From positions 248,001 to 312,000 of the forward strand of contig CAWVNT010000209.1 of NCBI GenBank assembly GCA_963930775.1: 64,000 nt of DNA, in the 5' to 3' direction. This DNA is from Cliona cf. orientalis (lineage: Eukaryota; Porifera; Demospongiae; Clionaida; Clionaidae). The translations under genes and the position numbers were made by a program. Shown here piece by piece: positions 33,587 through 61,517 of the stretch. The first letter of the stretch is position 1. Every line of letters begins with the position of its first letter. Under the pieces are notes generated by a model. It did no database searches, had not been told where the DNA came from, and saw nothing but the letters and a program-made list of their open reading frames with translations.

Positions 33587-36500
33587 CTACACCTTTTCAA
33601 AAAAACAGAAAACTCTATCATGATCTGAATAATATGTATCTTGAATGTCAATAACAATGTCATTTATCCCCCGAGAATATACATGATCCAAAGCACTACC
33701 ATAATCAGTAGTAGGCTTGGTCACATGCTGTTTGAATCCATTCTTTAGAAAACAATCACCAATCACCTTCCGGTCTTCAGCTTCAAGCAAATTTTCATTG
33801 AAATCTCCAACAATTATGACTTTATCTGTCTTGAATGTCACATCGTTGATGAATTTCTTTATTCCATCACACACAAAATATTTTGACAAAGATGGTGAAA
33901 TATACATACAGATAACCACCACTTTATTTGGACAATAGACCTCAACTGCAACTGCCTCAAGATTACTATTGTTGGGAACCTGTCTACTTATATATTTCTC
34001 ATCAACAGCCACCAAAACACCACCACCTTTTGTTCCAATTCTATCTTTTCTATAAAGACAGCCTTTCCTACCAGGCCAAATATTCTTCACAGACGCAGAA
34101 TTTTCACTACAATAATGCGTTTCAGTCAGACAAGCTATGTCAACATTCTGAATTTCCTTGTCACATTGCAAATCCAGCTCCTTTGTTCGAGATTTAGCAG
34201 CAAGACCCTGAACATTGACATGTACCATTTTTATAGAATCATCAGGTATTGACCACATCAGTGGTTTGGGAATGGGTGGCAATCTTTTGTCTTTCCTCAA
34301 ACGATCCATTTCTTTCTTTACCTGACGCGAAACTCGAATCTGGTTACGATTGTAATTAATAATATGTAAACCATTATATGTACGTACTCTGCTGAAAGCA
34401 ACATATGCTTGACCATTCATGTATCTTCCTTTTTCTCTCGTCATATCAACTACAATAGAATCCATTGTCATTCCTTGAACCTTGTGAATAGTAACTGCCC
34501 ATGACAAAACCAGAGGAAATTGTCTTCTAGTGACATTCACAGTATTATCATTATCTGTTCTCTTTGTCCTAAATGAAACCTCAGACTTGCTTATAGGAAC
34601 TGCTCTCGCATCGATTCTCTTGTACACACTTTTAGCCCTTGCCTCTTTTCCTACTCTGTCACTGTCAAACCTTACCAAGACAATTCGGACTTCTTCAAAG
34701 GTATCACCATTTTCACATTGATGTGTACTTGTAATCATTCCACTAACTGTACCAAACACTCCATTTGTCAGACCATCAGCAACATTGACATTACTACTAA
34801 GAAAAACCCTGGCACCCACCTTAAGCAGTAATGTGTATGCCAAATTACCTGTTTTATTAGTAGCTAACCGAGAGAGATCTACCTGAGACATATTCACCTT
34901 CACACTCTGAAGACTATCTTCAGCCTTTACTATGTACACTGGCCCTTCCAATCGATTAAGCATTGTCTCATTACGTATATTACAATTCTCATTGTTTGCA
35001 TACACATGTAACACATCATTTGGATATGCTGGATCATTCTCATGAATGCTTAGTTCTCTGGCTTTCAACATTCTATCAACTTCACTGTTCTCTTGTGGTT
35101 TAGATACCCTAACAATATTCAGCATATCTGCAAAAGCCATGTCTTTTTGACGCATCACCTGTGTCAGTTCGTGGAAAAGAAATTTATCCCATAAAAGAGG
35201 AGCCAAATCCTGTGGACATCTCGAGTTATAATAATCTTTCACAAACAACTGTTTCTGCATCACAGGAGCCAACTGGTAAAAATCGCCTACAGCTAAAACA
35301 TTAATATTTCCAAAATTTTGACTATTAGGATCTTTATATTTGATCATTGCACATCTCTGATTAACTTGATTGAAGTGACGAGTTCCTACCATGCTCACTT
35401 CATCAATTGTAATGTGTTGTAAACGTTGTAGTCTGGTCTTCATAGTTGTTTTTCTCTCATCTGAAATATTCTTATTGTGCAACTGAAAAGCAGAGTGCAG
35501 TGTCATACCATCAATATTGAATGCTGCAGTTCCTGTGTAAGCACACAGAAGGGCAATCACATCCTCTGAACTGGAATCTACACCGCCAAAATCACAAGGC
35601 TTGCCTACAAAAAACCTGCGAAAAAATTTAACATTGTCACGATATATCATCTTAATCACATGACTCTTTCCTGTACCTCCTGGTCCACTCAGGAAAATGT
35701 GGTATGATTCAGCATCTTCACCTTTATTCATTTTACACATAGAGTCCTTCATCCACAGTCTATTGAATGTAACTATTTCTCGCTGCTCCTTATTGAGGTT
35801 TCGCATCATGATGCAATACTCTTCATTTGAAATTGCTTCCTTCCTTCCTTCAATTCTGTACTTTAAGGACAATGATGACTCATTAACTTCTTCAACAACA
35901 CCATCACCATTACCACCGCCACCACTACCATCCACATCATTACCATCACCTTCTGCACTGAAATCTCGTTCCGTAATATCTTCCTTGCCACATCCAGCTT
36001 CCAACCATTCTGACACCTTTGGAGGGTTATTCTGGTATTCTTCAAGGGCTTCGTCAATCATTTTACTGTTCAAATTAAAAGACTCAGCATTCTCTTCTAC
36101 AATTCTAATGACTTCATTGTAGTGATCTTCATACGATTCATAGCCACCAAGTAGCTCATCCTCATTTCTCCATGGTAGAAACAAAAGCAGTTTTGAATAA
36201 TAATACTTAAATGTATCTTCATGAAACCTGTGTGTACGGATGACTGCATCTTTACCTCTTTTTCGCATTTGACCAAGTTTTGCATCCTTTAAATCGATGA
36301 CATTATCACCAGATGCATCACGTGGTGCCAGATCATATTCTGCAACAAATTTTGCCAAACACATTTCTTCCAAGTCATCTGGTCTCATGGCATAACGTTC
36401 GTGAATACAGGTTTTGAAGACATCTTCATCATCATCCTCCAAATCTGCCAATTCATGACTGCTTTTGGGCATCCTGTGGCGTTCTTCTTTGGGAGCATTA

Positions 36501-39500
36501 TTAATATGCACTACTGTCCTGGACTTTCTGAAAAGCCAAAGAGATGTTACACGATGAATAGCTTCATGTATCGATACTTCACGCTTGTTTGCAAACATTG
36601 ACAAAACTTTACCCATCTGTTTCCTAACAGATTCATCCTTGAACTCTTTTGCAGTACGTTTCAAAATTTCACTCATTCCATTTTCACATTTCAGTACATA
36701 TGACAAGACATACATTATACATGCATAAGGATCAGCAACATACTGGAGGTCCATATTTGCACGCCACAGCTGTAGACAATTTCTGTTGTAATTATTTGTC
36801 TTTGTATCTGAAATATCTCTTTCCAAAATCATATTAGTGCCACGATAAGAAGATGTACGCAAACAGTCCAAGTACATTTCTTCTGGAATCTTCTCACTGT
36901 CCAGAATTTCCTTTAGAGTAGAACCATCATCTTCTTCAATTCTCTCATGCACCAATTCCATGATATGTCTTCTCAATTTCTCATCAATTCCACCATGACA
37001 GCTATCATTCTTGTTTCTCGCAATAATTGTTTTCGTTGTTGGAGGCCTTGGGAAACTAAAACGACATTTAGCATTAACATGAGGTCTACAATATGGAGAG
37101 TGAGCATGACCTTGTAACTTCTTCACCAGACCATGTATGTCACCATTTTCTTCACTGTCGCAAGGTATCTTTCCATCGATGTACTTATCTACAAATTGAC
37201 AAACTTCATCATCAGTGTTCTCATCTACCTTTGGTGCATCTTTCACCCATATGAGGCAATGTGCATGAGGAGAGCCCCTTGCCTGAAACTCAATTTTTTG
37301 AACATATTCTATTATTTCTCCCAATGGATGAGCATCACTCAAGAGGAAATCTGAAAAAAAAGATTCTAGTCGCTTATGAAACATTTGGTCAATAGGTAAA
37401 GGATTCTCTCTGAAGAGTTTTGCTTTTGTTTGCCAATCCATTGCCATTACTTCTTCTTCTGTCCAATTTTTTCCAATCTTTTTCCCAACGGCTTGTGTAA
37501 TTTCAGGCCATAAAAACTCAGCTGGAGACAAACTCAAAAACCAAGTCGGAGTTCCAAAAGTACGCAGCATTGCAAGTGTATCATAAAGCTGTTGTTGCCA
37601 GTATGCTGGAGTTCCACGAATCTGATTCATGAATTTGTATGCAATATCTTTCCAAATCAACTGGTTTACTGTTTTAAAATTCCTTAAATCACCAGCATTC
37701 ACCCTTCGACCTTCTGTGTTCATCCGTTTCAAAGCCATATTCATAGCTCCTTGCAACTGTTGTATTTCTGTGGCATATTGAAAGGCAAAAATATATTCAG
37801 AATTCTGACTAAACCTTGCATCCTTATTAAGTAACCTCTGATTGATGTAACGTCTCAGTTTAATTTCTTCCTCTCGAGGTTGTTCTTCTTCTTCCAGATT
37901 GTGACCACCAAATCCTCCTGGAAAGAAATCTGGAAAAGATAAGACCTCAAATTTATCATCCATCAATATGTATTTAGGAATTGAGTTTTGTCCTGGAGCT
38001 ATTGAGAATACAGCTTCATCAAGGTCTTCAATCTGCATGCATGTTGACGATTCAACAACTCTAATCTCAGATCTTCTCTCATACTCGTTTTGGGCCTCTT
38101 TTACATTTGCTTCATCTTCTTCACTTTTATTGCCTTCATCATCATCATCATCATCTTCATCATTGTCACCTTCATCATGAGCAGTACCTGCATCAATAGA
38201 AAACTTTGTACTTGTTTCATCTGCCTTTCCACCTTCAAGAGAATCAGAATCGTTGATTTTGCAATCATTTGCCATCACATCATTTTCCTTATCGCCATTC
38301 TCAATATCATTTTGCTCCACACTATCTTCATCACAATTTTCTTCTGAAATATGAGGAAACATAGCATCAGATTGAAACTTCTTGATCCAATTTTCATCAA
38401 TTTTCACATTGCAGTAATGCCTATTATTTCTTTTCAACCATCGCAAAGCATTCATAACTTTCTCTGGACGAATGTAATCACATAAATAATTACTCTTATA
38501 GGTAATCATTCTCTTAAATTTTAGCAACACCAAGTCAATATTTTCAGGAATCCGTGGCAATACATCTGCAATAGGCTCCAAAGTGGCTGGAACATTTACA
38601 CAAGGACCTCTTATTTTCCCTTGTCCACCCTTTGGTAAAGCTCTGATTGACATGAAAGGTATTCTCAAACCAATGCACCTGCATTCCAATCTCGTAAGAC
38701 CCTGCAATTCTCTTGGAACTTTTGGTATTTCTAAACCATTTGCAACTGCTTGACAAGGCATTTCATTTTTCCTCAATTTCCTATCACAAGTTGTACAAAT
38801 ATACTCATGTTCTTTTTCTTTATCTTTGAAACGATATCTATCACTCAAGGCCCTACCACAAACACCACCAAAATCATAATTTCCTTCTTTAAATTTGATC
38901 ACACTTCTGTAGAACATCATACGATGACAACATGTACATACAAATTCTGGAAATTCCTTACAACTTTTCTTGAATTTAGAAGCTGCTTTCTGCAGTAAAG
39001 CATCTTTCTTTGATTTGTTCTTGGTAACCTTCTTTTCAACGTCTATTTCATTTTTTATCCTTTCCTTCAATTCTTTTTTAACTTCAAATTCTGAAATTTT
39101 CCTCAATAATGCTTCAACTTCAACTTTACGATCTACATTCTTTTTTTTAACATGATGAAACACAGAGCTGTCATTCTTATTCTGTACCAAATATATGCAC
39201 TTCATAGGATACTTTGGATTATCCCAACTCTTCAGGCAGTTGTGACAAAATCTACAAATGAACTCATCTCCACTATGATCACAACAACGTATCGTTTCAT
39301 CCAATACATTTCTCACTATATCATGCTCAAAGTTGTATTGTGACCTATCAAACATATATACATTACTCTTCATGGAAACTGTCCGATAACACGAAGTACA
39401 CAACCAACCATCTATGTTTTTACCTTCTTCTTCATTACTCTCTTTCTTTGCTTCAGAGTCTATCTGTGAATTGTTATCAACACCGACTTCATCTTCATCC

Positions 39501-42500
39501 ATCTCTTTTGTCAGATCAATTTCTATTGGTACCTTTCTGGACAAGTCATCACTATATCCAATTGGAATCATATTGACATCAACAATAGGCATTGTTTCAT
39601 CAATGTCAACCAAAGAAACAAAATGATTAAATCCAAAACTATGAATGTTTGATTTTGACCACATTATTCGAAGTACTGTATCAACCTTGGGACTATCTAA
39701 ATCCATAGGCAATATTACTCGATTCATATCCTGCCTCAAGCTTCTTATTGGTGTGTTAGGAAAAACACTCTGAACGCAACAGCCTACTACATTAGATGCC
39801 TGATGGAACTGCCAAATGCCAGAATATTCGTTGAAATTAGTCAAATTCAACATCTCTCTTTTATAATATTTTACCACACTCTCATGATCTAAACTCATTC
39901 CAGCCCTGTAGAAACTGCTATAAGTAGCATAAATACTTGCGCAATCATCATCTTCTTCATGTGGAAAATCGTAACCTCTACACAGATAGTCATGATTCAA
40001 GTACAAATTCATATTTTTAACACCTTCTACAATAACACGCACTCTCATTTCAACACAATGAGATTCATCACCATATACTAATCGTGACAAAGCATAGTAG
40101 AAGCAACTTCCGTCTCCTGTAGTATACACAGAAAATAACCTATCCTTGTGCACACCAACATCATCTGGAATTAAGTAAAATGCTGTTGCATCTCTCTTGT
40201 CATGAATCATCTGCCGAAGTCCCTTGAAATCACAAGTCAAATCTGGAATATCCAATAACCTCACACACCTTTCCAACTCATCAAAATTTATACACGCATT
40301 CAGGTTTTGCAAAGTCTCATTCCAATCGAAGAAAGCAGTAACACCACCTACAGTCTTGACATTATCTTTTTGGAAACAGTATGCATTGGGAGGAATACTG
40401 GGTTTTCTGGATTTACCAATTCGTAGGCAAGAATGGCATTCTAAGCACATGTATTCATACAAAGATCTTTTACATCTGAATTCCTTTTTCAGTGCAGTTT
40501 GTGCAGGATCACTTGTAAGATCATATTTCTTTCTAGCAAATAGCACTACATTTTTCCTGTTATCAAATATTCTGTGGCAACATGTACACAAGTAATCAGC
40601 TTCTTCAAATTTACTCATTGAATTCACATTACTACTGACACTATTGATATTCTTCAAACTCACATAGCAATCGGTACACACATACTTAATGTCAGACTCT
40701 GTCTTTTGTGTATTTTTTGATAATGCTTTCTTAACATGTTCAGACTCAAAATTGTAATCCTTCTTGTCATAAATCACCAGATTATTTCTTCTTTTCGTCT
40801 TACAGCAAACCATACAAGTGCGTGTTCCATTCCCTCTCTTCACTTTCACTGTAAATACAGAAATATTTCATTTTAATTATATTATTTTAATAATATTATT
40901 TAATTACACTATTACACAGACTTTGGAAGTGCTGTAAAGTGAATCAACCTAAATAGGGCTGTGCACGCCTAGCCTTTCTGATTATTGATAACATGCTATA
41001 TGACAAAATATACCATAGCACTTTCGTATTAAATTCTATCAGGTTTGTGAGATAAAATGTTGTCTTTTTACCATCATAAGATATAAATTGTACAAAAAAA
41101 TGTTTTTAATTATCTGAAAGAAATATATATCCCCATAAAAACCAGTATTCATACCTTTTTGATTTACATGACTCATTCCCTCACTTTTTGAAGCAGAAAC
41201 ATCAGACAGCTTAATCTGAAATATTTAAAACATAACTATCACACATTAACAACCATATAAAATGTCAAAATATTAATACATTACAAATATATACTTCTAA
41301 AAGAAATGGTCAATTTTTTTATTAAATAAATATAAATGTTATTTCTACCTTCTTCTCATTTCCTTCACTTCTTTTCATTGCATCAGACTTTCGTTTCTTT
41401 CCAACACCGGTTTCCATTACAGACTACAAAAAGATAATAATTATAAACTTTTACTCCTTTATTTCAATCATACATTCTAATCAATTTAATATGTGAACAA
41501 AAGAAACAAAATTATCAACTATTCCTCATCTTTTTGCATTTTGAAAAAATAAAATTTACTTTATTTATAATATTGTTTTACATAAATCAAAACTAACATT
41601 TAAATTAAATCCAATTACCTTTCTTGCACTTTTGTCTGAAACTATTTTATCATTGTTCCTGGATAACATCTGATCAATCTCCATTTCACTCAGTTGACTA
41701 ATGTATGAGTCAATCTCTTTGTCATACTGAAAATAAACAAAACATGACTTCTATTTTTCATTTAACTTTATACAATTTTTATCCATTAAAATTGAAGAAC
41801 AATCTATATCAAAATATTTAATTTACTTTTACAAGAACTTGCTGTCAATTTAATATTAAATATTCTTTTTTATTCTCTTTGTACCATTTTTATTAGATAC
41901 CTCATCATCACTTCCAAATATGTTCACTAATTTCTCTTGATTGTCAACATTCTCATGAAAGTCACAAATCACTGTTCTACTTCCCATAGATTCCTATAAA
42001 ATTAATAATATATATTATATTATAAAATTCATTCCATGATATATACAACATTTGTACTGTTCAATAAACATAAATTTATACACACATGGAAACTTTCACC
42101 AATTCCCGAATCATCAAAGTGTTCATAATTTTTCCTTCCAGAGTGCTGAGAGAAAAATATTTGAAATATTCAAATAAATTATAAATATATCTTGTCCATT
42201 AATCTATTTAAATTATTCCTCATATAATTTTAAAATCTACTAAAGATATTAAGTATTCAGTAATTGATTATACTACAAGTCCTTACTTCATTTGTCACAC
42301 CAAATGTACTGGTTTTGCCAAGGGTACACAATCTGTCTTTCTGTGATACACCATCAATCTACAGAAGAATGAAAAATTCTAATTTAATATATAACTAATA
42401 CTATTACTAATTCATAATATTTAGAACTGAAAAATTAAAATTTTATACACTTGAAAACTCTACAAATTGTTAAAAATTACCGGTCCTGGATTCCACTCTA

Positions 42501-46228: not shown

Positions 46229-46321
46229 GTGTAACACGCTGCTTTAAGGGGAGCGTCTGGATTCTGGACTCGATTAGTGTTGAGCGTTGCATAAAGACAC
46301 AAAGCGGCTTGGCGAACACAG

Positions 46322-46327
46322 TTTATT
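46322..46327 (-). terminator. LTR polyadenylation signal AATAAA
   Basis: AATAAA on the - strand about 130 bp downstream of the TATA box, the order expected for the R region. It is duplicated at 59118-59123. Confidence 0.55.
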
Positions 46328-46455
46328 AACAAAAACCAAATTTAGAAAGGCGAAACCTTGAGAAAGCCACAACAGACTACAAAAGTGTGAAAACGGTTGC
46401 ACACCTTCTTGAATTGAATTTAACCCGTGTACTGGTGCGTCATCGTGTGCGACCT

Positions 46456-46468
46456 CTTATTTATATGA
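46456..46468 (-). promoter_or_regulatory. TATA box of the LTR promoter
   Basis: CTCATATAAATAAG on the - strand, about 230 bp inside the LTR end. The same motif is at 59252-59265 in the other LTR. From the 3' LTR it points straight into gene B. Confidence 0.55.
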
Positions 46469-46799
46469 GTTCTTTATGATGTCACAGCTTGACGTCATAA
46501 TTACGTAAATGACATCACGATTACATCATTGCTCAGTATGGTAATTGGTTAACTCTCCTGAGATGATGTAATATCCTTGTATTCTAATTGGCTTTGCGAT
46601 TTTGAGTACTCACGTGACTTGATCACTGGGTACTGTTTCTAAATATAGAACGCTCTCGAGAACATGCTCAATTCCCTAGATAGAGACGTTCTCGAGTGCA
46701 TTCTCTCAAATGACAGCTAAAGTTTAAAAATAGTACCCCCCCCACTCTCCTGTTACATTCTTCCCCTCTTTCGTGAAGTCATGTCCCCATGACGACCAT

Positions 46800-48040
46800 A
46801 TTGTCCCAGATGTGAGTATGTTATTAGCAATTGGAATTATTAGGATATTTTATTACTTTCAGGAATGGGGTTATCATTGTGCATACAGTTGACAGGTGGG
46901 TAAGTACTTTTCCTTCCCTAATTGGAGACCTAACTTATCATAAGAGATAGAAACTAGACTGTATTCAAATATTACCTACATTGGGGGTCTTCCTTCCCAA
47001 CTAAACTATAACATATCTTTCACGTTTTCTAGTTAAAATGTTGCGTATGTGTTGTCTATACACAGGAAACTACCTCGGACTGGAGTAGAACAGGCAGTTC
47101 TACAGGGCTTCTCATTTCTGGTGAGTTATTCTTTCTTTTCCCCAATCACTATAGTTGCATTAAATGTCGTCCTTATTATACAGAATGAAGAAAACGATAT
47201 AGTCATCTACTGCCTACCTAGTGTTAGAAGAACATGTGATGTATTTTGAAATCACAGGTTCCTTTGGTAAGATCCCTTTTTGAAAAGAACAATATTCTTA
47301 TGTATTGTCCAATGTTTTGGGTAAGTGAAACAATAAACTTTCCTATGAGAACAAACAGATCCAAACTGATAGAAATCATATCTTCATTTCTCTACCGACT
47401 ATGGGGTTCCTCTCCCCAAATTATAATAACCTTGATTTTGATGAGCGTCCGTTACTACATGCGAAAGAGTTTATACGACGCAATGACAATTCCGTCTACT
47501 CTTCCTTGTTTCCTCTTTCCGTGTTCGTGTTTATGAGGGATGGGAAATGTACTCTGATTTTCAACCCATTCCGGAGTCCAATTTTTAAGTGGGAGCACGA
47601 AGACAGTCTTTCGGTAAGAGGGTTCAACCCCTAGCTTTATTTTGACAACATATCCAAAAACATTCTCTGATGCAGAAATGGAAGATGAGTATAAGGGTCA
47701 GTAGGTCCTCAGAGTACATTTCCCCTCTCCTCTTTTTAGCAGTTTCCGTAGGATGCCTCCCAGTTGGTAAGAGGTGTGGGCCAACTAAAGCTTTTATTTG
47801 AATCATGGCCCGAACCTAACATTACTTAACTGAAGTTCTTTTGGTACGAGAGTAAAAACAACACATGTGATTCAAGTTTAAATATGTTCGGTTGTTTCTT
47901 TGTTTATTTTATCGTATAACAAATATCAAATGGAACTTAAATATTCTCTCGTTTCCTTTTTCAGATTCTCTTCATCTGACGAATGTTTCATCGATATATT
48001 AGGTAAGTACATTTTATATACATGCACAATCTTATCTGTG
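46800..48040 (+). other. antisense exon-like blocks inside the LTR
   Basis: Open blocks bounded by AG and GT signals, near 47068-47120, 47185-47270, 47400-47610 and 47965-48002 (+ strand). They are kept in the right LTR with almost no change. No domain was recognised; they could be part of an antisense transcript leading to the 49.9-52.1 kb gene. Confidence 0.35.
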
Positions 48041-48128
48041 AGTGAGTTACAGTTTCTATTTCAGTTCCGAGAACATTCTCGAGTGTGCACTGATTCCGAG
48101 AAACCTGAAACGTTCTCGAGAACGTTCT

Positions 48129-49658
48129 CTAAATCATTGATGACATGTCTCCAGGATTTTTCCAAGTTTCTCCTCTTATTCTTCTTGCTAATATAATGTC
48201 TTTGGGCATTATAGTTACCCTCTTTGCGTGTATTGCTGCCAGGTTGGTGTCCTCGAACAATCCCACCAAGTAGGCTTCAGCTGACTCCTGTAGAGCCATT
48301 ATCGCATCTGATTGAAATTTTATGCCTCCTGGGAATCTATCTGATCCCCTGTCCCGCACCTCACCCTCGGCTATTTCTCGAACTAGTCTCTGGAATGGGA
48401 GCTTTCGGATCAGTAATTGGTGGTGGCTTTGAAAGTGACGAATGGCACCCAATGATCCCAACTGTCCCCGGTATACCAGGGCAGTACTGTCCTTCCCTTT
48501 AGCCTTCTCATTTTTCTTCTTACCTGCTGTGACTTCGGCGGCCATCTGTTTCATGTCTTTTTGCCCTGCTCCTAATCCCTTCCCTTTCGATGTACTAGGT
48601 GTAATTTTCGGTTTGGGTGGAGGGGGTGTGGGAGCCAGAGTAAGTTGTTTCAATACTCCCTTAGCTGGGCCTCCTTTCCCGCCTGACTTGCCTTTGCCAG
48701 CAGGTACCTCAGGTGTAGGGGGAGGGGCCTCACTTGGTTTCCCAGGGGATTTCCTTCCTGGATTTGGATCCTTTCGTGGCTTCTTTCTTGCAGTTTCCTC
48801 TTTGCTTGGGAGTGATCTTTTCGAGGACACTGTTCTGATTGCTGCCCCTTTTGTACCTCCTCTTCGCGCATTTGCCCCTTCCAGTAGCTCGTTTGGGTCT
48901 TTCTGTTCCTCTAGTTCGTCCAAAAATTTTTGCATCTTCCAAGTTATTAACTGACTTCGGACTCCGCCACGGCTTCTCCCTCGTCCCATTGCCCCCGTTG
49001 TCTTGTTCCCTTCCTCCTCTGAAGCCTCCTTATCACCTTCTGTTGACGGTGTTATCGTTTCCTGTCTTGGATCTTCTTCTCTGGTTTCCACCACTCCCCC
49101 TATCGGCCCTCCTTCATTGTCACTGCTGTCTTTCTCCAATGCCTGTTCAACAAGCGTGAGAAAAGAGTTTCGAATTGCACCACCTATTTGTTCATCTGTC
49201 GTCACTTCTCCACGGCCTCTACCCCGACGTGCTCCGACCTTCCCTCTACCTCGACCCTGTGGCAGTCGTCCCCAGCTATCTTTGTAACTGCGTGTCTGTT
49301 TTTGTCGAGCCATTCTCTTTCTGTAATTTTCAATGTTCAGTTTTATTTTGTCTCTCAAACTCTCAGCCCTATCCTTATCTTGAGCATGCACAGTTTTGCC
49401 TACATCCACCGCCTTGCTGAGAGCGTTCTCGAGTGTGTCTCCCTTTTCTAATTTAGAGCACGCTCTCGAGAGCGCTCTCGGTCCTTCGACTGGTTTTTGG
49501 TTTTCTTTATCTTCTGAATTGTTCTCAACTACTGTGAAGACCTTTGTCAAAATCAGCTCGACAATCCATGCAGCGGGATGATTCAGTAACTCCAATCCTT
49601 TTCGGAAGGGGTTCGGTGGCAGTGGGTGTTTGCGTCTCGTTTGTTTAGTGTTAACCAT
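48129..49658 (-). CDS. retroelement-borne histone H3-like protein
   Basis: A 509-codon open frame in the sense direction of the element. It starts [10 protein letters not shown], matching the H3 tail ARTKQTARK at Thr3, Lys4, Gln5, Thr6, Arg8 and Lys9. A long low-complexity part follows, with an RG-rich stretch at about 130-155 ([17 protein letters not shown]), acidic and Pro/Lys-rich segments. Residues 394-509 are an H3 histone fold: the alpha-N region [15 protein letters not shown], alpha 1 [16 protein letters not shown], alpha 2 [19 protein letters not shown], then [14 protein letters not shown] and LARRIRG. Between REIA and FQS there are 17 residues instead of the 8 of canonical H3. The H3 Cys110 position is Ala. 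The histone fold lies inside the LTR and so occurs in both LTRs. The strong identity in helices and the diverged tail and loop suggest a functional H3 variant of the element rather than a stray pseudogene. Confidence 0.85.
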
Positions 49659-49917
49659 CTACAATCATGCAGTTAGACTTAACTTCTACCATGCATCAAC
49701 AATTTATTTGATTTTGGCTGGACGCCCCCTGTTTCTTTTCATACTAGGCTTTTAAGATGCTCTTTTTCTATAGGAAATTATTTTCCCGCCTTTTTCGTCG
49801 ACACTTTTGGGTTAACATTTTCCTTAACACCGAATCTGATTTTGGCGGGAAAACCACCATTTTTGTCACTTTTTAGTCAGACGTCGAAGAGGCAACATCT
49901 TCCTCATTGAACTTTTG

Positions 49918-52088
49918 AAATGGCTGATTTTAAAGGCAAAGAGCTTCTTCGGAGGCTTTCCTGGCTTGTTTATCAGGATGAGGAAAACTTTAGGATGCAA
50001 CTGGAGTCAGCTGTAGGTGGTCTTACATCTGTTTAGAGAACGTTCTCGAGTGTGTTCCTCTTTCCCTTAGAAAAACACGCTCTCGAGAGTGCTCTCTTAC
50101 CATTACATTCTTTCTCTTAGGGTTTCAGTTCATATGATTACACATCCACGGAGGCGGCCTGCATTATCCTAGCTTGTGAGTTACGGACCGGGAAAAACTT
50201 TACTCTAGAACAAATTCAAAATGGAGAGCTGAAAGATCACCTTCTACCTTCAGATTATGACTTGGACAAACGAGTGAGTAACTTACTTTTTAACCGAGAT
50301 ATTTCCCTTTCAAACGTAATCTTCAGGGTGATGGTAACAAACTTTGAATAAAACCACATCCTTCCCACTCGAGATCTAGTGTGCTGGCTAATTGTGTGCA
50401 CGAGTTTTTCTTTTTAGGTGCAAGGGTTGTTATTACGCACTGTTGGACTTTTTCTTACTCGCTATCTGAGAACGTTCTCGAGAACGCCTCTCGAATTATT
50501 CAATCCGAGCGCTCTCAAAAGCGTTCTCCCTGATCTACTTTTCTTATACTAATCTTTGATATTTCATCTCCCGGAGTTACGAGCCCAACACGATGTGGCT
50601 ATCTGAGAAGCTTATACTCGCCGTGATTTGGACCTTCAAGAACTCATCTCTGGGGCTCAGAAACAATGGGAGGAGCGTGACAAAACCCCCGCCCCTGATT
50701 TGGCTCTTATGACCAAGGCCGACATACATGGGCGACAGAGTGAACAACGGTTTGGGCGAGACACACTGCTTGCCACCCAGGCTAGTTTGCTGAAGGCTAC
50801 CGGGGAAACAACCATATCAGACGATTCACGCCAGTATTTGATGATGAGTGTAAGTATTTTTGGAGAACGTTCTCGAGTGTGTTATCCTTCTTTAGTTTGG
50901 CTGAACGCTCTCGAGTGCGCTCTCTATCTAAACTCTCACTTTGGTGTCTTTCTTTTCAGGCCATGCATGACCTTCAATCAGCGAACAGTCTGGAGGCCCG
51001 GGCCATTTGTCTACGCCAAGAAGCCCTGTCTCGAATCATCCTGTCTCTCAGGGGAACTGCTGCCTCTGGGTTTCTCAAATTTGTAATCGACACTTTTGGA
51101 AACGAAAAAGACTTTTCGACCGCTCAAGCCGAAGCAGCTCTTCACGTTGAAGGTGACACCGAAGACGAGGATGCAGGAGACGAGGTCCAAGCAGCTCCAG
51201 GATCTTCTATGGACACTGATCCCGGGAAAATACCTGATGTCTGTTCTATCAGTAGTGCCAAACCCGTTTATCCTGTTAGCGAGGATTTGCTGAATTCAAC
51301 TGGAGTTCCAAAGGAATTTATCTCTGACCCTACCCCCTGTGGGCCCTCTAGGGTTTCCACTTACTTCTGCCTGTACGGAGAATGCAAAGCTGTCGCTGCC
51401 CAAAAGGCTCTTATGATGACTCATGTAAGAAGAAAACATCTCGGTGTGGCTATAGGCTGTAAATACTGTGGGAAGCAATGGTGGGCAGGCCGCCCCTTTG
51501 CACCGCACATGGAAAAGGAGCACCCCGAACTTTCTAGACCGGACTGGTATACCCCCATAAATCCCAAGGAGGCGGCCGAGGAGGAGGCAGAAGAGGCTAG
51601 GAAGTCTGCAGAGGAGATTCAGAGTTCCTCCGTTTCAACCATTCCTCTAATGTAATTTTCTTCTTTTTAATCTTCGGTATTTTTGTTCGAAATTTTTCCT
51701 TGGTTCTTATCTTGCGAACTTTCTATAAAATTTTTACTTTTCCTCTTGCAGTACCTCCTCCACAGCCGATTCTGCCTTCCCCTCCAGCCTCCCTCCTACT
51801 AAGGAAAGCTCATCCGAAGAACTCTTTTCTGCTGAAGAGGACACAGTTCATTCATCTCCGACTGAGGGTTATGATGTTGCCGCTTGTGTAGAGTCCCCCA
51901 GAACCTCCTCATCAAAATCCCTTCTATCTCAAAAATCTCATCCCAAAATTGAGGCCATTCGCTACAGGATACCTAAATCTTTTGTTCGGCCGTCCTCTCA
52001 AAATCTCCCTCCAATTTCTTCCCAAAAACATCTTTTTGCTGACGAAGGTGACTTAGAAGCTGAGGAGATTCTCCTGGACTCTGACTAA
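49918..52088 (+). CDS. antisense spliced-looking gene with C2H2-like region, inside the LTR element
   Basis: Exon-like blocks on the strand opposite to gag-pol: an ATG block from 49920 (MADFKGKELLRRLSWLVYQD), then about 50125-50273, 50605-50849, 50961-51655 and 51752-52088, ending LLDSD and stop, each bounded by usable GT and AG. The 51370-51530 part has FCLYGEC..H..H and CKYCGKQWW..H..H, two C2H2-like fingers, followed by an acidic helix; the end is Ser/Pro-rich. I do not recognise the family. It sits where other elements keep env or accessory genes. Each of its first three introns and its 3' flank contains one 62-bp double-palindrome module. Confidence 0.6.
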
Positions 52089-52749
52089 ATGTTTTTTTTT
52101 TTCAGGATTTGCAATTGGACTACACTCATTTTCATTATACACGGTTTCACTTGTCATTCATCCTTACTCATCCTTTCTATTCAAGTTTGTTCTCATTTTC
52201 ATTATACACGGCTTCATGTATCATGCATCCTTTTTCATTTGTTTAATAAATATTATATTCATAACCGGTTGTTTGTCTCTTTTCCGAGTGCGCTCTCAAG
52301 AGCGCTCCCCTTTTTGTTTTCTCTGAACGCTCTCGAGAACGTTCTCTGTGTGTTTCCTTATTCACTACCATAGTCTCTTTAATGTTCGTAACTTTATAAA
52401 TTCTAACGAGTACCTTGGGAATTCGATTAACAAGTATGCCTAACAATAAACTTTACAAAATTTAAGATTTTGTAAAAATGTTTCAACAACGTTTTTATAA
52501 TCGACAACAGTCAATCAACATTTTCATCAGCCTGAATTGTCCTGACTGGGTAAGGAAAACCACTAAATGATGTAAGAATCTAGGTGCTTTCACCCTGACT
52601 CACAGAAAGTCTGGACCGGAATTTTCTTAGTAAAATCCCGCTTTCTGATCAAACTATTCTTTTCACTCTAGTTTAAGAGGTCCATTGAGGATTTTATACT
52701 CTACGGTATCCCCCCAGTTTTCAGTTCAACAATTCATAGGAATCAGACA

Positions 52750-52775
52750 CTGTCTGTTTCCTCTTTTCCTCCCTA
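52750..52775 (-). promoter_or_regulatory. candidate polypurine tract behind Pol
   Basis: On the - strand AGGAAAAGAGGAAACAGACAG is followed by TGTCTGATTCC. A purine tract followed by TG is what precedes a 3' LTR. If true, the LTR spans about 46230-52749 (6.5 kb) and both the histone-like frame and the antisense gene are LTR-borne. Confidence 0.4.
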
Positions 52776-52805
52776 TTTTGAAATCATCTCTTAGTGATTT
52801 CATTT

Positions 52806-55800
52806 TTAATCTTTGTTAAAGTATTCGGTCATAAGAATGTTACCTTTGACCAATGCTTGTCTCCGGGAATTATTTTCCTGGATACTTTCGTATTGTTTTG
52901 AACTCAAAGGAAACAACATGTTCCTGTGTAGAGTCCTGATGTTTCTGGTACCAGATTCCTTTACGCTTTGGACCATAAAGACTGGCTTCTTCCCATTCTG
53001 ACTCAGTACTCGATAAGGGGTTATTTCCCATTTATCTGCTACTTTATGGTCTCTTCCGAAAGCCTTGATTCTAACCATAACTAAATCTCCTGGTTTAATT
53101 TTCATGCATTTGTGTTTCTGATCAAAATACTTTTTATGCCTTAGCATATGATCAGAACTAGCTCCTTGTGCTATTTCATAGGCTTGCTCTAAAGTTTGTT
53201 TGAGTTTCCTTACGAACTCACACAAGGTTTCTTGTTCCCTGTTTTCGGGTAATCCGAATTCTACGTCTATTGGGATTCTTGGTTCCCTCCCAAAGAATAA
53301 AAAGAAGGGGCTATATCCGGTAGTTTGGCTGTTTGTACAATTGTAGGCATATGTCAATGCCTGTATTTTCCCTATCCAATCTACTTTTTCTTCGGGATTC
53401 AATGTGCCTATCATGTTTAGTAAGGTTTTGTTGAATCTCTCTACTTGTCCATTTCCCTGGGGTCTATATGGGCAAGTCCTGATCTTAGTTATTTTTGTCT
53501 CCTTACAAAGTTCTTCAAACAGCTCTGCTTCAAAACTACCACCCTGATCTGTTAGTATTTTCTCTGGCCAGCCATACTGGGAAAGATATTTTTCCCATAA
53601 TGTTTCTGCTACTGTCTTTGCTTTTTGGTTATGAGTCACATAAGCTTGGGAGAATCTTGTGAAGTGATCAGTTACTACCAAGACATTTACAGGTTTCTTT
53701 TTCTCACCCTTACTGTCTTTTCCCACTTGTCCTATTGTTAGGAAGTCCAAGTGTAACATTTCTAGGGGGTACGAACATTCTATCCTTTCCAGTTCGGAAG
53801 TTTCTTCAGTTGTTTTAAAAGTCAAACACCTGCTGCAGTTTCTGATGTGTTCCCTTGTATCATTTATGAGCCCATTCCAGAAGAATCTCTTCTGTAGCAG
53901 AAATGTTGTTTTATCCATACCTTGATGTCCAAATTCATCATGGCAGGCTTCCAGGGCCCTCTTTCTAAATCTCTGTGGCAGTATAAATTGGAAGGTTTCC
54001 TTCCCTGTTTTCTTATGTTTCAATACTTTATACAGCAACCCATGTTGTATTACCAAATTCTTCCTTTGTTTGAATAATTGTCTAATCAAGTGGGGGTCTT
54101 TCTTTGTGATTGGCCCTCTTTTTCCCTTTTTCCATGCCAGTACGGACCCAATCACACCATCTTTTTGTTGTTCTTCTTTCCAGTCTTCCCAAGATTTATG
54201 AGCTACCCCTGACAACTGGAGATTTTTCATTATTACAGGGGTTTCCCGTTGGTTTACTCCTACAAAGGGAATACTTACATCAGCTGCCCCTCCACTGTCT
54301 AATATTGCTTTTACTTCCACTTCCATAATGGTTTCTACCTTTTCTTCTTCTCTATCTATTCTAGATAAAGAGTCAGCTACTTGATTCAATCTCCCTGGCT
54401 TATAATGGACTTTGAAATTGTATGGGCCCTGTAAAGCAGCTATCCATCTCTGTCCTGTCGCGTCTAACTTTGCGGAGGACAGAACATAGGATAATGGATT
54501 GTTGTCTGTGAATACCTCGAAGGTACTACCATATAGATATTCATGAAATCTATCGGTTATACTCCATTTTAGAGCCAGAAATTCCAGCTTATGAGTGGTG
54601 TAATTCTTCTCAGCTTTATTCAAAGTTCTACTTGTGTAAGCTACTGGTCTTTCTTTTCCATCATCTCCTACTTGAGATAGCACTGCCCCTAATCCTTTCT
54701 TGCTCGCATCTGTGGTGAGTTTGAATGGTTTTTCATAGTTGGCATAAGCTAAAACTGGGGTTTCTGTACAGATTTTCTTCAGGGATTGGAAGGATTCCTC
54801 ACAGTCTGGGGTCCACTCCACTTTCTTGTTCTTTCTCTTTGCATTATCTCCCGAAATTAACTTATTTAGGGAGTTTGCTACTTGGGCATACTGTTTAATA
54901 AATTTTCTGTAATAGTTAGTGAACCCCAAAAATTGCCTTACATCTGTTACTGTTTTAGGCTGGGGCCATTCTTTAATATCCAAAATCTTTTTGGGATCTG
55001 TCTCTATTCCTGATTTAGATACAATATGCCCTAGGTATGCAATCCAATCTCTGAAAAATTCGCACTTCGAAGGTTTCAGCTTTAGCCCTGCCTCCCTCAT
55101 CTTTTGGAAAACCCCTTTTAGTCTTATTAGATGTTCCTCAGGTGTTTTAGAAAACACAATCACATCATCTAAGTAAATGATACACCAGTTTAAATGCATC
55201 TCCCCCAGGCAGCTTTCCATCAGGCACTGGAAGGTTGCCGGAGCATTGGTTAGACCGAATGGCATCCGCACACATTCATAGAATCCCAAGGGCCCCACCG
55301 TGAATGCTGTTAAAGCCTTGCTTTCCTCTGATAGTTCTACCTGCCAATAGCCCGACTTTAAATCAACTGAACTGAAGATCTGAGCCCCATTTAAACAGTC
55401 TAAGGACTCCTCTATTCTAGGAAGACTATAAGCATCTTTTACTGTTCTTTCGTTGAGTTTTCGGAGATCTATGCAGAACCTAAGACTTCCATCCTTCTTT
55501 CTTACTAGCACAATGGCGCTGGCCCAAGGGCTTTGACTTTTTCGTATTGCACCTATGTTTATCATTTCTTCCAAATGCTTACGAACTTCCTCAAATTGTT
55601 GAGGAGGAATTCTCCTATAGCATTCCTTAAATGGTTTATCATCCAGGAGTTTGATTTCATGTTTGACGAGCTTTGTGTGTCCTAACTCAGTATCTTTTAG
55701 GGCGAAAATGTCTTGGTAGTCCCTGATGAGTGCCCTGGCTCCTTCTTGATTCCCTTCTGACCAATTTTCTAATCCCTGTAAATCCAGAACTTGGAAAAGT

Positions 55801-56590
55801 TTTTCTACCCTGCTTTCTACATTTTCCTTCTCTGTTTTGTCTGAATTTTCCTTTTCTATCTTAGGGGCTAACATACTAGGTATGGCATTGGCTGGCCCAA
55901 TTTCTGCTACTACTTTTCCTTTTTGTAAGGTGATTGGTTTACACGTCAGGTTTTTCAATATTACCGGGACCCTATCCGATCCTTGTTTCAGAATCCCATA
56001 ACAGGGTACCACAGCTAAATTTGGTAATTCTCTTTCATTCTCTTCTCTATCTTCTGTGATTATATGAATGTTTTTATGGTGTTGTCTAACTTTGCTCTTG
56101 GCAGACAGCCTCACCGTATGGAATGGTTTAATTACTACATTCTTAGTGACCTTTACTTCTCCCCCTACTTTCTTCAGTTCAAAAGGGGTGTCCTCTTTGG
56201 TGACTACATTCTGTTTCATCGTAATCTTCCAACCTAAACTCCCTCTCTGCCACTTCCTTCCCATATTTTCTAGTTCTTCTTTGGTGGCCGTTTCCAATAT
56301 CATATCTATATGCAATGTCCCTATAGCTACCGGCACCCTCTTCCCATATTCACTATCTTTTACTACTAGCATGAGGACATCCTCTTTGAATCCCCTAACT
56401 TCAGGGATATCTAGATTCAATTCCACATAGCCCTCGTAGGGGATCTCTAATCCCCCTGTCCCCTCTAAATCTAATAAAGTTTGTAAGTGTTGAATTTTCA
56501 ATCCTAATTCATTTACCCTGGTCCTGGTAATGGAGGAGAGTTGAGCTCCCGAATCTAATAATACTTTAGTTTTTATCCCTTCTATTTGAG
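52806..56590 (-). CDS. pol: Pol: protease, reverse transcriptase, RNase H, integrase
   Basis: One long open frame, order PR-RT-RH-IN as in Ty3/gypsy. The protease motif LLDSGAQ is encoded near 56550, so the frame begins upstream of 56501 and overlaps the end of Gag in another frame, a layout this family uses. RT has LDLRKLN-type text (CIDLRKLNERTVK), LKSGYWQ and the YLDD box (IIYLDDVIVFSK). RNase H has TDASKKGLGAVL. Integrase has an HHCC region (HDEFGHQ...CSRC) and a DDE core (LHLDFLTIG, LTDQGGSFEA, RPQGNGQVERFN). It looks whole. Confidence 0.93.
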
Positions 56591-56665
56591 CATACGTTTC
56601 ATTAGGTTCCCCTATCAGCCTTATTAAAGGGTCAGGGTTGTGAAATCTGGATATGGATCCCTGTT

Positions 56666-58213
56666 TTATGATGTATTGTTGGGGGCCTCCTTTCCCTCTG
56701 GAGGAGGTTCATCCCCTTGCAACCTCCTCCAATCGATGTTTCCCGGGGAGGGGCATTCTCGCCACCCATGCCCCCAACCGCCACATCGGTAACATTGAAG
56801 TGGTTTCTTCCCTTGTCTGAAAGGTCCATGACTGGTTATTTCTGGTCCTTTCATTTTTGGTACCCCTCCTCTTTCGCTGGATTTCTTTACAGGTGAACAA
56901 GGGGCACTAGCACTCTTTGGTTTGACATTATTTGCTTTTAACATTGCTGTCAGGTTTTCTATTCGATTATTCAGCTCTTGAATTTTGGAATTTTCATTTT
57001 TGTCCACTACCCGACGGCCTATTAGTCTCGCTGAAGCTCCTTTACTTTCTGTGAATTCTAATTCTGCTTCTTTTGCGGCATCTAACAATTCTTCATAGGT
57101 GGTATCATCCTGTTTAAATAGGTACCTAGTGGCATTTCTTAGTCCGGGAATCATTCCGAAATACAGCCTTTCTTTCAACTGGGCCCCCCCCCATAACGTT
57201 CTGGGAAGACTGCCTTTAATTTCTTATAGTGGTTCTCTAACCTTCCTGCATACTGTTGTACTCCCTCGGTTTGTTCCTGTCCAAGCTGAAAAAATTCATA
57301 TTGGAGCCTATCAGTAGACTAGTTTTTCGGAAATGGTGCTCTAATCTTTCTAGGATTGTTCCTAAAGGAGCACCAAATCCTACGTACTCTACCAAATCCC
57401 TAGCTTCACCTCTTACTGAATTGATTATTCCCGACCTTATCGCATCCTCAGTGTGTTGGGTTTGTGAACCTTTAACTTGGAAGATCCACTGTTCGAATGA
57501 CCCTTCCTCCCTGGGTACCGGCTCTGTCCCTGAGAAATTTGGGAGATCTGGGGCTTTACTTATCTTGTACACTACATTCCCCTTTTCATCCATTCTCGGA
57601 GCCATCCCATAGGGACCACTAGTGGTGGGGGCAACTCCCTCCCTACTGTTTTTCTCCATTACTTTTATTTTCTCATGGAGTCCCTGTACCACTTCAGCTA
57701 ACTGGGACCGATAAGACTCTTGTTCTTTCTTTATAGACTGGACCTGGTTCCTAACTTCTTCCTGTTGAATCTTTTGGTATTCTTTTTCTCTATGTATGTT
57801 GAGTAAACTTGCTCTCCCCGACATAACACATCCTATCTCTACGTCCAATTCTCCCCACTTTCCTGCCCCATGCATAATCTGGGAAATCTCCACGACCGGG
57901 CTCCCTTGTTCGAATTCGATCAATGCTTCTCAGTCACTCAGTATCGATATCTGATAGGGTAGCACTCCTGTCTTTTCCTGAATTAGGCGGGCCAAATTCA
58001 CTGTGGTCATACACCCCACAGGTAGAACATTTTCATGTCTCCCTGTTACAGTCAAAAGAATACTCAAATCCTGGACAATCTTGTCATTTCCCCCCATATC
58101 GTGAAACTCTTCCCCTTCCCTCCCTATTTCTAAAGTCTCTTCTTTGGACATGCTTTTCCGTCTACCCCTTCCAAAGAAACTACCTAACCTTCGCAGACCC
58201 TGAATTTTGTTAG
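56666..58213 (-). CDS. gag: Gag-like region, PNMA-type, with zinc knuckle
   Basis: Covers a coiled-coil stretch, a capsid-like region (DLPNFSGTEPVP, SFEQWIFQVKGS, ILERLEHHF) and a CCHC knuckle (CYRCGGWGHGWREC). The FSG..P.P..GSFE.W layout is that of PNMA genes and the gypsy elements they came from. It is spread over more than one frame with one or two breaks. Confidence 0.8.
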
Positions 58214-59000
58214 TTAGGTTAGATCTTATCTCTATCTGATTTCGTTAGTTGTGGCTTTCTTTACAACTTATAATCATCTCATGCGTTTGACTAGCACCAT
58301 TTATCACAATACGTATCAAAGATTACTTTTATCCCAAAACATAGAAATAAACTCTATTTTAAATAGAACTTTGACTGTAAAAATATATCACATCAATTGA
58401 GACCTTTATTACTGGACTCAATTCTCTACAGTTGTGGCTCTCCTTAGCTGGTCTCCTTCTCCATCTTTTCTGGGGTGGGATGAAAGAAAATAACTTAGCA
58501 CATAAGTACTCACGGATCCGTTTCTTCTTTGTGACTCCACAGTCACTTCCAGCTAAGTCCTTTTTGATCAAGTTCACTTTACTAAATATTATTCCGAGTA
58601 TTTGAATCACCGTCTTTGAGAGTTCTCCCAGTCTCTCAGTCACTGTTTAACTGGTTTCCGGGACCACTACTCCATTCTTTGATTGTTCAGGATTGTTTGA
58701 GTTTTTCCTTCTTCAAAGTTCATCGATGATTTGCAACTCCTTCTGTCACTCTTGTTTTTACCCCACTCCACCATCACCCACTGCGATGTCGGGTAATAAC
58801 TGGATGTGCAAATCACTCCCGTAACCCGAGAACGTTCTCAAGTGTGTCTCTCTCCTTCAATTTGCACAACGTTCTTGAGAGCACTCTCCAAACACTCTCG
58901 ACTCTCCGAACTCGTCCGGAGACCACCGATCTTCATTGGAACGCCAAGTACATGGACTCTTCACTCCTGCTTTCACTACTGGATCTTGCTGCTCATTCTT
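58214..59000. other. 5' leader of the LTR element
   Basis: Untranslated stretch between the Gag-like region and the primer site, with one 62-bp module at 58827-58889. No further gene was recognised. Confidence 0.6.
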
Positions 59001-59023
59001 TCGAGTCCCATATTGGGCGCCAA
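59001..59023 (-). promoter_or_regulatory. primer binding site, tRNA-Lys type
   Basis: On the - strand TGGCGCCCAATATGGGACTC lies about 3 bp from the LTR end at 59026. The first 11 bases agree with the 3' end complement of tRNA-Lys used by many retroelements. This fixes the orientation of the element. Confidence 0.8.
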
Positions 59024-59025
59024 AT

Positions 59026-61318
59026 TGAAACACGCTGCTTTAAGGGGAGCGTCTGGATTCTGGACTCGATTAGTGTTGAGCGTTGCATAAAGACACAAAG
59101 CGGCTTGGCGAACACAGTTTATTAACAAAAACCAAATTTAGAAAGGCGAAACCTTGAGAAAGCCACAACAGACTACAAAAGTGTAAAAACGGTTGCACAC
59201 CTTCTTGAATCGAATTTAACCCATGTACTGGTGCGTCATCGCGTGCGACCTCTTATTTATATGAGTTCTTTATGATGTCACAGCTTGACGTCATAATTAC
59301 ATAAATGATGTCACGATTACATCATCGCTCAGTATGGTAATTGGTTAACTCTCCTGAGATGACGTAATATCCTTGTATTTTGATTGGCTTTGTGATTTTG
59401 AGTACTCACGTGACTTGGTCACTGGGTACTGTTTCTAAATATAGAACGCTCTCGAGAACATGCTCAATTCCCTAGATAGAGATGTTCTCGAGTGCATTCT
59501 CTCAAATGACAGCTAAAGTTTAAAAATAGTACCCCCCCCCCACTCTCCTGTTACATTCTTCCCCTCTTTCGTGAAGTCATGTCCCCATGACGACCATATT
59601 GTCCCAGATGTGAGTATGTTATTAGCAATTGGAATTATTAGGATATTTTATTACTTTCAGGAATGGGGTTATCATTGTGCATACAGTTGACAGGTGGGTA
59701 AGTACTTTTCCTTCCCTAATTGGAGACCTAACTTATCATAAGAGATAGAAACTAGACTGTATTCAAATATTACCTACATTGGGGGTCTTCCTTCCCAACT
59801 AAACTATAACATATCTTTCACGTTTTCTAGTTAAAATGTTGCGTATGTGTTGTCTATACACAGGAAACTACCTCGGACTGGAGTAGAACAGGCAGTTCTA
59901 CAGGGCTTCTCATTTCTGGTGAGTTATTCTTTCTTTTCCCCAATCACTATAGTTGCATTAAATGTCGTCCTTATTATACAGAATGAAGAAAACGATATAG
60001 TCATCTACTGCCTACCTAGTGTTAGAAGAACATGTGATGTATTTTGAAATCACAGGTTCCTTTGGTAAGATCCCTTTTTGAAAAGAACAATATTCTTATG
60101 TATTGTCCAATGTTTTGGGTAAGTGAAACAATAAACTTTCCTATGAGAACAAACAGATCCAAACTGATAGAAATCATATCTTCATTTCTCTACCGACTAT
60201 GGGGTTCCTCTCCCCAAATTATAATAACCTTGATTTTGATGAGCGTCCGTTACTACATGTGAAAGAGTTTATACGACGCAATGACAATTCCGTCTACTCT
60301 TCCTTGTTTCCTCTTTCCGTGTTCGTGTTTATGAGGGATGGGAAATGTACTCTGATTTTCAACCCATTCCGGAGTCCAATTTTTAAGTGGGAGCACGAAG
60401 ACAGTCTTTCGGTAAGAGGGTTCAACCCCTAGCTTTATTTTGACAACATATCCAAAAACATTCTCTGATGCAGGAATGGAAGATGAGTATAAGGGTCAGT
60501 AAGTCCTCGGAGTACATTTCCCCTCTCCTCTTTTTAGCAGTTTCCGTAGGATGCCTCCCAGTTGGTAAGAGGTGTGGGCCAACTAAAGCTTTTATTTGAA
60601 TCATGGCCCGAACCTAACATTACTTAACTGAAGTTCTTTTGGTACGAGAGTAAAAACAACACATGTGATTCAAGTTTAAATATGTTCGGTTGTTTCTTTG
60701 TTTATTTTATCGTATAACAAATATCAAACGGAACTTAAATATTCTCTCGTTTCCTTTTTCAGATTCTCTTCATCTGACGAATGTTTCATCGATATATTAG
60801 GTAAGTACATTTTATATACATGCACAATCTTATCTGTGAGTGAGTTACAGTTTCTATTTCAGTTCCGAGAACATTCTCGAGTGTGCACTGATTCCGAGAA
60901 ACCTGAAACGTTCTCGAGAACGTTCTCTAAATCATTGATGACATGTCTCCGGGATTTTTCCAAGTTTCTCCTCTTATTCTTCTTGCTAATATAATGTCTT
61001 TGGGCATTATAGTTACCCTCTTTGCGTGTATTGCTGCCAGGTTGGTGTCCTCGAACAATCCCACCAAGTAGGCTTCAGCTGACTCCTGTAGAGCCATTAT
61101 CGCATCTGATTGAAATTTTATGCCTCCTGGGAATCTATCCGATCCCCTGTCCCGCACCTCACCCTCGGCTATTTCTCGAACTAGTCTCTGGAATGGGAGC
61201 TTTCGGATCAGTAATTGGTGGTGGCTTTGAAAGTGACGAATGGCACCCAATGATCCCAACTGTCCCCGGTATACCAGGGCAGTACTGTCCTTCCCTTTAG
61301 CCTTCTCATTTTTCTTCN
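59026..61318 (-). repeat. 5' LTR (right copy), cut by the assembly gap
   Basis: On the + strand it begins TGAAACACGCTGC, directly after the primer site, and repeats the left LTR base by base apart from scattered substitutions. It carries the same TATA box (about 59252-59265), AATAAA (59123-59118) and histone-fold coding segment (60927-61259). It runs into N at 61319. Confidence 0.85.
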
Positions 61319-61517
61319 NNNNNNNNNNNNNNNNNNNNNNNNNNNNNNNNNNNNNNNNNNNNNNNNNNNNNNNNNNNNNNNNNNNNNNNNNNNNNNNNNN
61401 NNNNNNNNNNNNNNNNNNNNNNNNNNNNNNNNNNNNNNNNNNNNNNNNNNNNNNNNNNNNNNNNNNNNNNNNNNNNNNNNNNNNNNNNNNNNNNNNNNNN
61501 NNNNNNNNNNNNNNNNN
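61319..61517. other. assembly gap (199 N)
   Basis: All N. It separates the right LTR from satellite DNA; the real missing length is unknown. Confidence 1.

Follow-up and report, generated by a model that had tools for sequence, protein, structure and literature searches.

The DNA described here, which we call the window, is a stretch of 64 kb (positions 248001-312000 of C117, a 338-kb scaffold in an assembly of 216.8 Mb and 149 contigs). On its minus strand lies element A, a Ty3/gypsy LTR retrotransposon, and at the place where env would lie this element carries a gene for a protein with the fold of histone H3. Its features, in window positions, are as follows:

46230..46757, minus strand: 3′ LTR, 528 bp, TG..CA ends, from the repeat and its mismatch profile
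46758..46773, minus strand: polypurine tract adjoining the 3′ LTR, CGAAAGAGGGGAAGAA before TGTAACAGG on the minus strand
46646..52346, no strand: seven paired palindromes of the GAGAACGTTCTCGAG type, near 46646, 48069, 49419, 50033, 50468, 50860 and 52290
48129..49658, minus strand: H3-like open reading frame, 509 aa, ATG start, intact, Pfam Histone at 7e-29
48168..48473, minus strand: H3 fold, approximately residues 396-497, with a loop 1 longer than in H3
49629..49658, minus strand: H3-tail copy at the N terminus, K4 and K9 positions kept, by sequence
49659..49919, no strand: region between two divergent genes, 260 bp
49841-49852: E2F-type site TTTGGCGGGAAA, 1 match in the window against 0.05 expected, for a pattern picked after the site had been seen
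49920..52088, plus strand: divergent companion gene with apparent introns; exons and a C2H2-like stretch assigned by eye
52806..56501, minus strand: Pol, with reverse transcriptase, RNase H, H2C2 zinc finger and integrase core (Pfam)
56666..57923, minus strand: Gag region split over two frames, with a PNMA match under the cut-off and a CCHC-like motif by eye
58825-58842: single palindrome of the GAGAACGTTCTCGAG type
59003..59025, minus strand: primer binding site, ..TGGCGCCCAATATGGGACTC
59026..59555, minus strand: LTR common to the next tandem unit (the 5′ LTR of this unit)
59556..61317, minus strand: 3′ portion of a second unit in tandem, including the final 129 codons of its H3-like gene, without amino-acid change

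Element A has the TG..CA ends, primer binding site and polypurine tract of an LTR retrotransposon, its 5′ LTR being held in common with the tandem unit, and its pol runs in the order reverse transcriptase, RNase H, integrase. AATAAA and a TATA-like sequence are found by eye within the 3′ LTR, and the gag has a 28% similarity match to the gag of a second family, C, described below. Approximately 6 kb extend from pol to the 3′ LTR, and it is these that hold the H3-like gene and the divergent companion gene. A direct repeat of 2.29 kb (46230-48519 and 59026-61317, 98.95% identical) reaches well beyond the LTR because a second unit sits in tandem after the right-hand LTR. The LTR itself is placed at 46230-46757 on the strength of its ends (TGTAAC..GTTACA, closing with GTTACA at 46752-46757), the polypurine tract, the primer binding site, and a drop in divergence: the repeat has 15 substitutions in the 528 bp of LTR versus 7 in the next 1762 bp (Fisher P 8e-6). 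The mismatch profile and the polypurine tract led us to drop an LTR of at least 2.3 kb with the gene inside it, and likewise a frame ending in the LTR. The first-pass annotation had put the frame on the sense strand between Pol and the LTR, and this is borne out, Pol being at 56501-52806 and in the same sense; it had also put the end of the frame inside the LTR, which is wrong, since the two are 1.37 kb apart. The tandem pair may have formed by recombination between LTRs once these had diverged. The second unit runs into a gap of 200 N (61318-61517), and the right end of the tandem array, where any target-site duplication of element A would have its second copy, lies beyond that gap. A search of the assembly that skips very common words returned no further copy or solo LTR of element A, whose DNA recurs elsewhere solely as pol stretches (65-86%) and as the histone stretch of an H3 gene. 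Between the 3′ LTR and the H3-like gene, the plus strand at 46790-48065 holds many short GT..AG-like blocks, resembling by eye a spliced transcript of tiny exons.

The site TTTGGCGGGAAA, which we take to be of E2F type from its consensus, would suit S-phase expression. In the companion gene, two frames were scanned and no Pfam family exceeded its cut-off. This gene is antisense to the retroelement RNA, and therefore its introns would survive retrotransposition. The paired palindromes are spread over the LTR, its flanks, the H3-like frame and the apparent introns, and in five of the seven pairs both CTCGAG cores are present, at a spacing of 36-38 bp. With up to 2 mismatches, GAGAACGTTCTCGAG has 21 matches in the window against 0.01 expected, all of them within 46646-60930 and many of them a palindrome counted on both its strands; the 216.8 Mb contain 6 exact copies of the 15-mer, always within the two A units, and none of its reversed control. 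Such an arrangement resembles a set of candidate binding sites for an element protein.

The first-pass annotation had claimed an H3 fold at the C-terminal end of the frame, and the claim stands. The profile search against histone families that it had called for matches residues 377-495 to the Pfam Histone family (7e-29) with 101 bits, against a cut-off of 26.4, and solved H3 chains match the last 137 residues, the best being H3.2/H3.1 (2.1e-33). The second helix and everything after it in the fold are nearly the same as in H3, and the main difference from the H3 structures is the longer loop 1. When the last 137 residues are modeled with AlphaFold, the helices come in the order of H3, at modest confidence (mean pLDDT 56), and the model matches the H3 chains of nucleosomes; a model of the full-length protein (mean pLDDT 36) is uninformative. 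Profile, solved chains and model agree on an H3-type histone fold. At the other end of the protein, the first ten residues align with MARTKQTARK of H3: the K4-T6-K9 part of the H3 tail (ARTKQTARKS onward) is present, and the remainder has been replaced. A second stretch resembling the H3 tail can be made out by eye at approximately residues 115-128. The product of 509 residues consists, then, of an H3-tail copy, a long linker and an H3 fold. Histone H3 has about 135 residues of near-invariant sequence, whereas the proteins of A and C have 509 and 383 residues and differ from it in loop 1 and in the linker. The idea of an LTR retroelement with a histone gene therefore survives in part: the element does carry a gene with an H3 fold, but its product is no plain core histone.

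The assembly contains 20 Pfam histone matches, and six of these lie in retroelements or share kilobases with them (two in element A, and one each at C117:5403, C134:16039, C101:16804 and C92:18931). They belong to element A and to two further element families with H3-like genes, which we call B and C. Family B (C117:1-9900 and C134), a large retrovirus-like element, has the order pol, H3-like gene, 506-aa frame, env-like frame, the last of these being named by eye and giving no Pfam env match. Its pol is represented by the integrase end in the C117 copy and lies off the contig in C134, and the copy on C98 has a dUTPase (7.8e-29). Both B copies of the H3-like gene begin with the tail copy, MVRTKQTARKQ in C117 and VRTKQTARKQ, without the Met, in C134, and both are broken: C134 has a stop between the N-terminal part and the fold, and C117 has stops in both H3-like pieces. 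In C98 no match to the H3-like gene was found, and the gene has been lost.

The family C copy on C92 has a gag with a PNMA-type capsid and a zinc knuckle just under the cut-off, a protease-like frame (named by eye, with no Pfam match), and an intact H3-like frame of 383 aa with the tail MRTKQTERK. It is a complete and young LTR retrotransposon insertion: its LTRs are 99.3% identical (9 mismatches in a 1340-bp alignment), it has a primer binding site of the same TTTGGCGCCCAAT type as A and a polypurine tract, and it is flanked by a 4-bp target duplication, CAAG (a chance match has odds of roughly 1 in 256). No pol frame was seen between its LTRs. The copy on C101 has 3.1 kb in common with it at 93.6%, and the H3-like gene there has one stop. 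In family C, then, the H3-like gene moves with the element. In A, in the C117 copy of B and in C92 the gene lies in the sense of gag/pol and downstream of them, and in A and C92 there is no gag or pol from the H3-like gene to the 3′ LTR. The gene is not universal, because no histone match was found near two relatives of the A-type pol on C117 (49-50%; a third relative, on C113, is cut by the contig end), or on the contigs bearing gag relatives of family C.

Proteins related to these are numerous. The C protein has 59 relatives at E<=1e-3 and 30-92% identity, every one from the source 'ena' and in clusters of up to 55 sequences, and 51 of them carry the histone-family mark. With residues 1-384 of the A protein as query there are 9 relatives (37-85%), and five of these carry the mark; the A fold as a query gave 3617 protein matches, and ordinary H3 swamps the 120 matches listed. 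Scans of IMG/VR and GTDB returned no relatives. In an alignment of 21 C proteins (the C92 protein and 20 of the 59 relatives, picked for length), K4, T6 and K9 are each kept in at least 90%. The N-terminal anchor is present in 28 of the 59, and 24 of those 28 keep xK[QNHP][TS], a pattern written once the sequences had been seen, the exceptions being P0126, P0134, P0177 and P0178. The anchor is present in three of the nine A relatives, and TKQT is kept in all three. The fold changes less than the linker in every A relative that has the fold (5/5) and in 16 of the 20 C relatives; the four nearest to C have a fold no more conserved than the linker. P0185 and P0188, in which the fold alignment is lost, are poor evidence.

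Selection was estimated from Nei-Gojobori counts between copies. Over 368 codons the C92 and C101 genes differ by 55 silent and 51 amino-acid changes (dS 0.25, dN 0.063, dN/dS 0.25, P 2e-11), with ratios of 0.34 for the N-terminal part, 0.16 for the fold and 0.17 for the C-terminal part (P 0.06). The dS of these parts is uneven (0.19, 0.59 and 0.08), which suggests recombination between copies. For family B, dN/dS is 0.12 in the N-terminal piece (220 codons, dS 1.57, P 5e-30) and 0.24 in the fold piece (118 codons, P 2e-5), and its neighbors are alike (0.13 for the 506-aa frame, 0.10 for the env-like frame). Because copies decay neutrally once inserted, dN/dS in the active lineages should be lower still. 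The two H3 pieces of A (129 codons) differ by 2 silent and 0 amino-acid changes (P 0.05), and because there is one full unit and so few changes, the case for selection on A rests on its protein relatives. The dN/dS across copies to which the first-pass annotation had looked thus favors the gene in B and C (0.12-0.25), but for the A pair amounts to those two silent changes. As for the possibility, raised there too, of a lone neutral pseudogene or of copies without the frame, the relatives, families B and C and the low dN/dS speak against it, but C98 does lack the gene and A is known from one full and one partial unit.

Histone H3 and CENP-A-like genes of the same assembly lie on the chromosome-size contig C10 (177248, 431871 and 822798). 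Identity to the A fold is 67% for that H3, 46% for the CENP-A-like protein and 61% for the B fold, and family C matches an H3 chain at 2.9e-16. In a tree of 25 folds, A, B and C each form one clade (99/99, 91/88 and 100/100), with A near H3 (80/85, an open fork) and C on a long branch. The data do not reject a single clade for all three families (p-AU 0.185), and the long branches make the placement of C unsure. Between the linkers of A, B and C no clear similarity was found: tblastn of the A protein finds the fold alone in B and C, and the C protein matches the fold and weak neighboring stretches in A and B. Two captures, or an exchange of the gene between element lineages, seem likely, because the pol proteins of the two families A and B share 23% identity across 495 residues. 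The Rfam histone stem-loop was sought at 9 loci and is uninformative, being found neither at the elements nor at the H3 genes of C10 and C7.

Close relatives of several families found here are held by small scaffolds (C117, C134, C101, C92, C98, C113, C22, C127 and others), and more distant ones by the chromosome-size contigs. This is so for the B-type pol (at least 40%), the C-type gag (48-55%), a 175-bp satellite and the Helitron of the window. The contrast is weaker for the A-type pol, which is 49-51% identical on C117 and C113, 46% on C23, and 46-48% in pieces on chromosome-size contigs, with one long match of 42%. The Bcl-2 family gene of the window, at 1031-1522, likewise has just 25-31% identity to its chromosomal matches. 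The small scaffolds may therefore represent a second animal present in the sample, or another compartment of the genome, e.g. heterochromatin that is supernumerary or unplaced, and because of this the host of the elements may not be the owner of the H3 and CENP-A-like genes with which we compared them. The coding content of the elements is unaffected by who owns the scaffolds.

What could such a protein do? Host genomes are commonly described as using H3K9 marks in an arms race with retroelements, which evade these or target their integration through integrases or chromodomains. We consider it probable that the frame in A is a Ty3/gypsy accessory gene, one of three that are H3-like, whose product would pair with host H4 as a decoy or replacement H3 and blunt silencing; shielding the element from silencing in this way is, in our judgment, the likeliest role. 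The protein would enter the nucleus, where its fold would pair with host H4 and so reach H4, chaperones or nucleosomes, and its tail would meet the enzymes and readers that act on H3K4 and H3K9. By presenting a K4/K9 tail on the element DNA or in solution, the decoy or replacement H3 would blunt silencing of the element, or mark its DNA as active. The A fold keeps most H3 residues, among them the H4 and DNA contact positions of H3, and incorporation into chromatin is therefore plausible. In the family C fold several basic H3 positions are changed and yet tail and fold persist, which suits a decoy better. Throughout, it is the K4-K9 tail and the H3 fold that are kept and the linkers that are dissimilar, and this points to selection on both ends together.

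Two proposals of the first-pass annotation, that the product packages element DNA or biases integration, amount to an H3-like protein that would coat the cDNA or dock the pre-integration complex on nucleosomes. The nearly complete H3 fold of family A would serve this purpose, and the paired palindromes peculiar to the element could serve it for binding or phasing; however, coating or docking does not need a K4/K9 tail, and the changed basic positions in the family C fold speak against it. On balance we think this unlikely. The H3 sequence might instead be a passive passenger, caught by chance through transduplication, its frames persisting for no other reason than that the insertions are young. 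Capture of H3 by hAT transposons is known in fungi, with dead copies in Pseudocercospora (PMC6710886), and here too the gene is broken in C101 and in the copies of B and missing from C98. Set against this are the low dN/dS of the H3-like genes of B and C, relatives that keep the fold down to 30% identity, plus the tail where that end is held, and the recurring position of the gene downstream of gag/pol and in their sense, with no gag or pol before the 3′ LTR in A and C92, all of which make chance capture more doubtful still. Even less probable is a CENP-A-like product that would enter centromeric chromatin and place the element or its copies there. Its loop 1 exceeds that of H3 in length, a trait that the chromosomal CENP-A-like gene shows to a smaller degree, and the scaffold also bears satellites with units of 175 and 184 bp, but the 175-bp satellite is found on C117 alone and for that reason is no evidence for centromeres. 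CENP-A proteins are not known to carry a K4-K9 tail. The A fold is not closer to CENP-A than to H3, and the fold identities and its grouping with H3 (an open fork) disfavor a CENP-A identity; among packaging, integration bias, and centromeric or silenced chromatin, the centromere version is the least supported. A host H3-variant gene beside which elements landed by chance would account for a 260-bp divergent region with an E2F-type site, resembling a cellular S-phase promoter, and for a companion gene with apparent introns, but is very remote given that the H3-like gene is repeated along with the element unit and that the C92 copy is enclosed by LTRs and a 4-bp target duplication.

The decoy or replacement H3 can be taken one step further, to a tentative reading that we put forward as a possibility: gypsy-type elements would have built an H3-based accessory protein, with no more of the tail than its K4-K9 part on a histone fold, repeatedly (or once, followed by exchange), and element A would pair it with palindromes and a companion gene as a self-encoded chromatin state, a private histone together with its own sites of deposition. 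If elements do deploy an H3-like protein that bears K4 and K9, they act on the chromatin substrate itself, and the old question of whether a mobile element can set its own chromatin state becomes testable by ordinary biochemistry. The families would also supply naturally occurring H3 variants with a remodeled tail, linker and fold.

Some Ty3/gypsy (Metaviridae) elements carry env or other accessory genes. Element A is like them in its gag-pol, LTRs, primer binding site and extra gene between pol and the 3′ LTR, and unlike them in that the extra gene is H3-like and is joined by a divergent companion gene and paired palindromes. With the H3 and CENP-A-like genes of C10 the elements have the histone fold in common, and they differ by their length of 509 (A) or 383 (C) residues, long N-terminal linkers, loop 1 and element context. 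Among the papers that searches of open-access PMC listed, going by title and start of abstract, none describes an LTR retroelement that carries a histone gene. The nearest case is that of the hAT transposons with captured H3 in the Dothideomycete fungi Pyrenophora tritici-repentis and Pseudocercospora fijiensis; their H3-like copies are truncated and inactivated in P. fijiensis and putatively active in P. tritici-repentis (PMC6710886). Both are mobile elements bearing H3-derived coding sequence, but a hAT is a DNA transposon with a transposase and terminal inverted repeats, and in place of these the elements here have pol or gag and LTRs, a protein rebuilt from tail, long linker and fold, and low dN/dS in B and C. 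Viral histones, such as the bracovirus H4 of Cotesia vestalis and the histones of DNA viruses, are alike in being histones with a possible role in host chromatin that are encoded by virus-like replicators, and different in that these are DNA viruses; neither 'retrovirus' nor 'retrotransposon' appears in the text of that article (PMC9145170).

The rest of the window holds several further features. A Bcl-2 family gene in a single frame occupies 1031-1522 on the plus strand (PF00452, 7.6e-33), with 25-31% identity to its matches on chromosome-size contigs. Long arrays of 12-bp units of the TCGCTCCCTGTC type, with higher-order structure, fill 5129-11150, and tandem satellites with units of 175 and approximately 184 bp follow at 11783-14592. 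Two two-frame genes at 15019-17439 and 62243-63898, both on the plus strand, are similar by eye and have C2H2 fingers in their second frames. Finally, a Helitron-type frame of 2420 aa extends over 33587-40849 on the minus strand, with a helicase and an endonuclease-like end recognized by eye, and a second Helitron-type copy, 99% identical, lies at C117:321545-327368.
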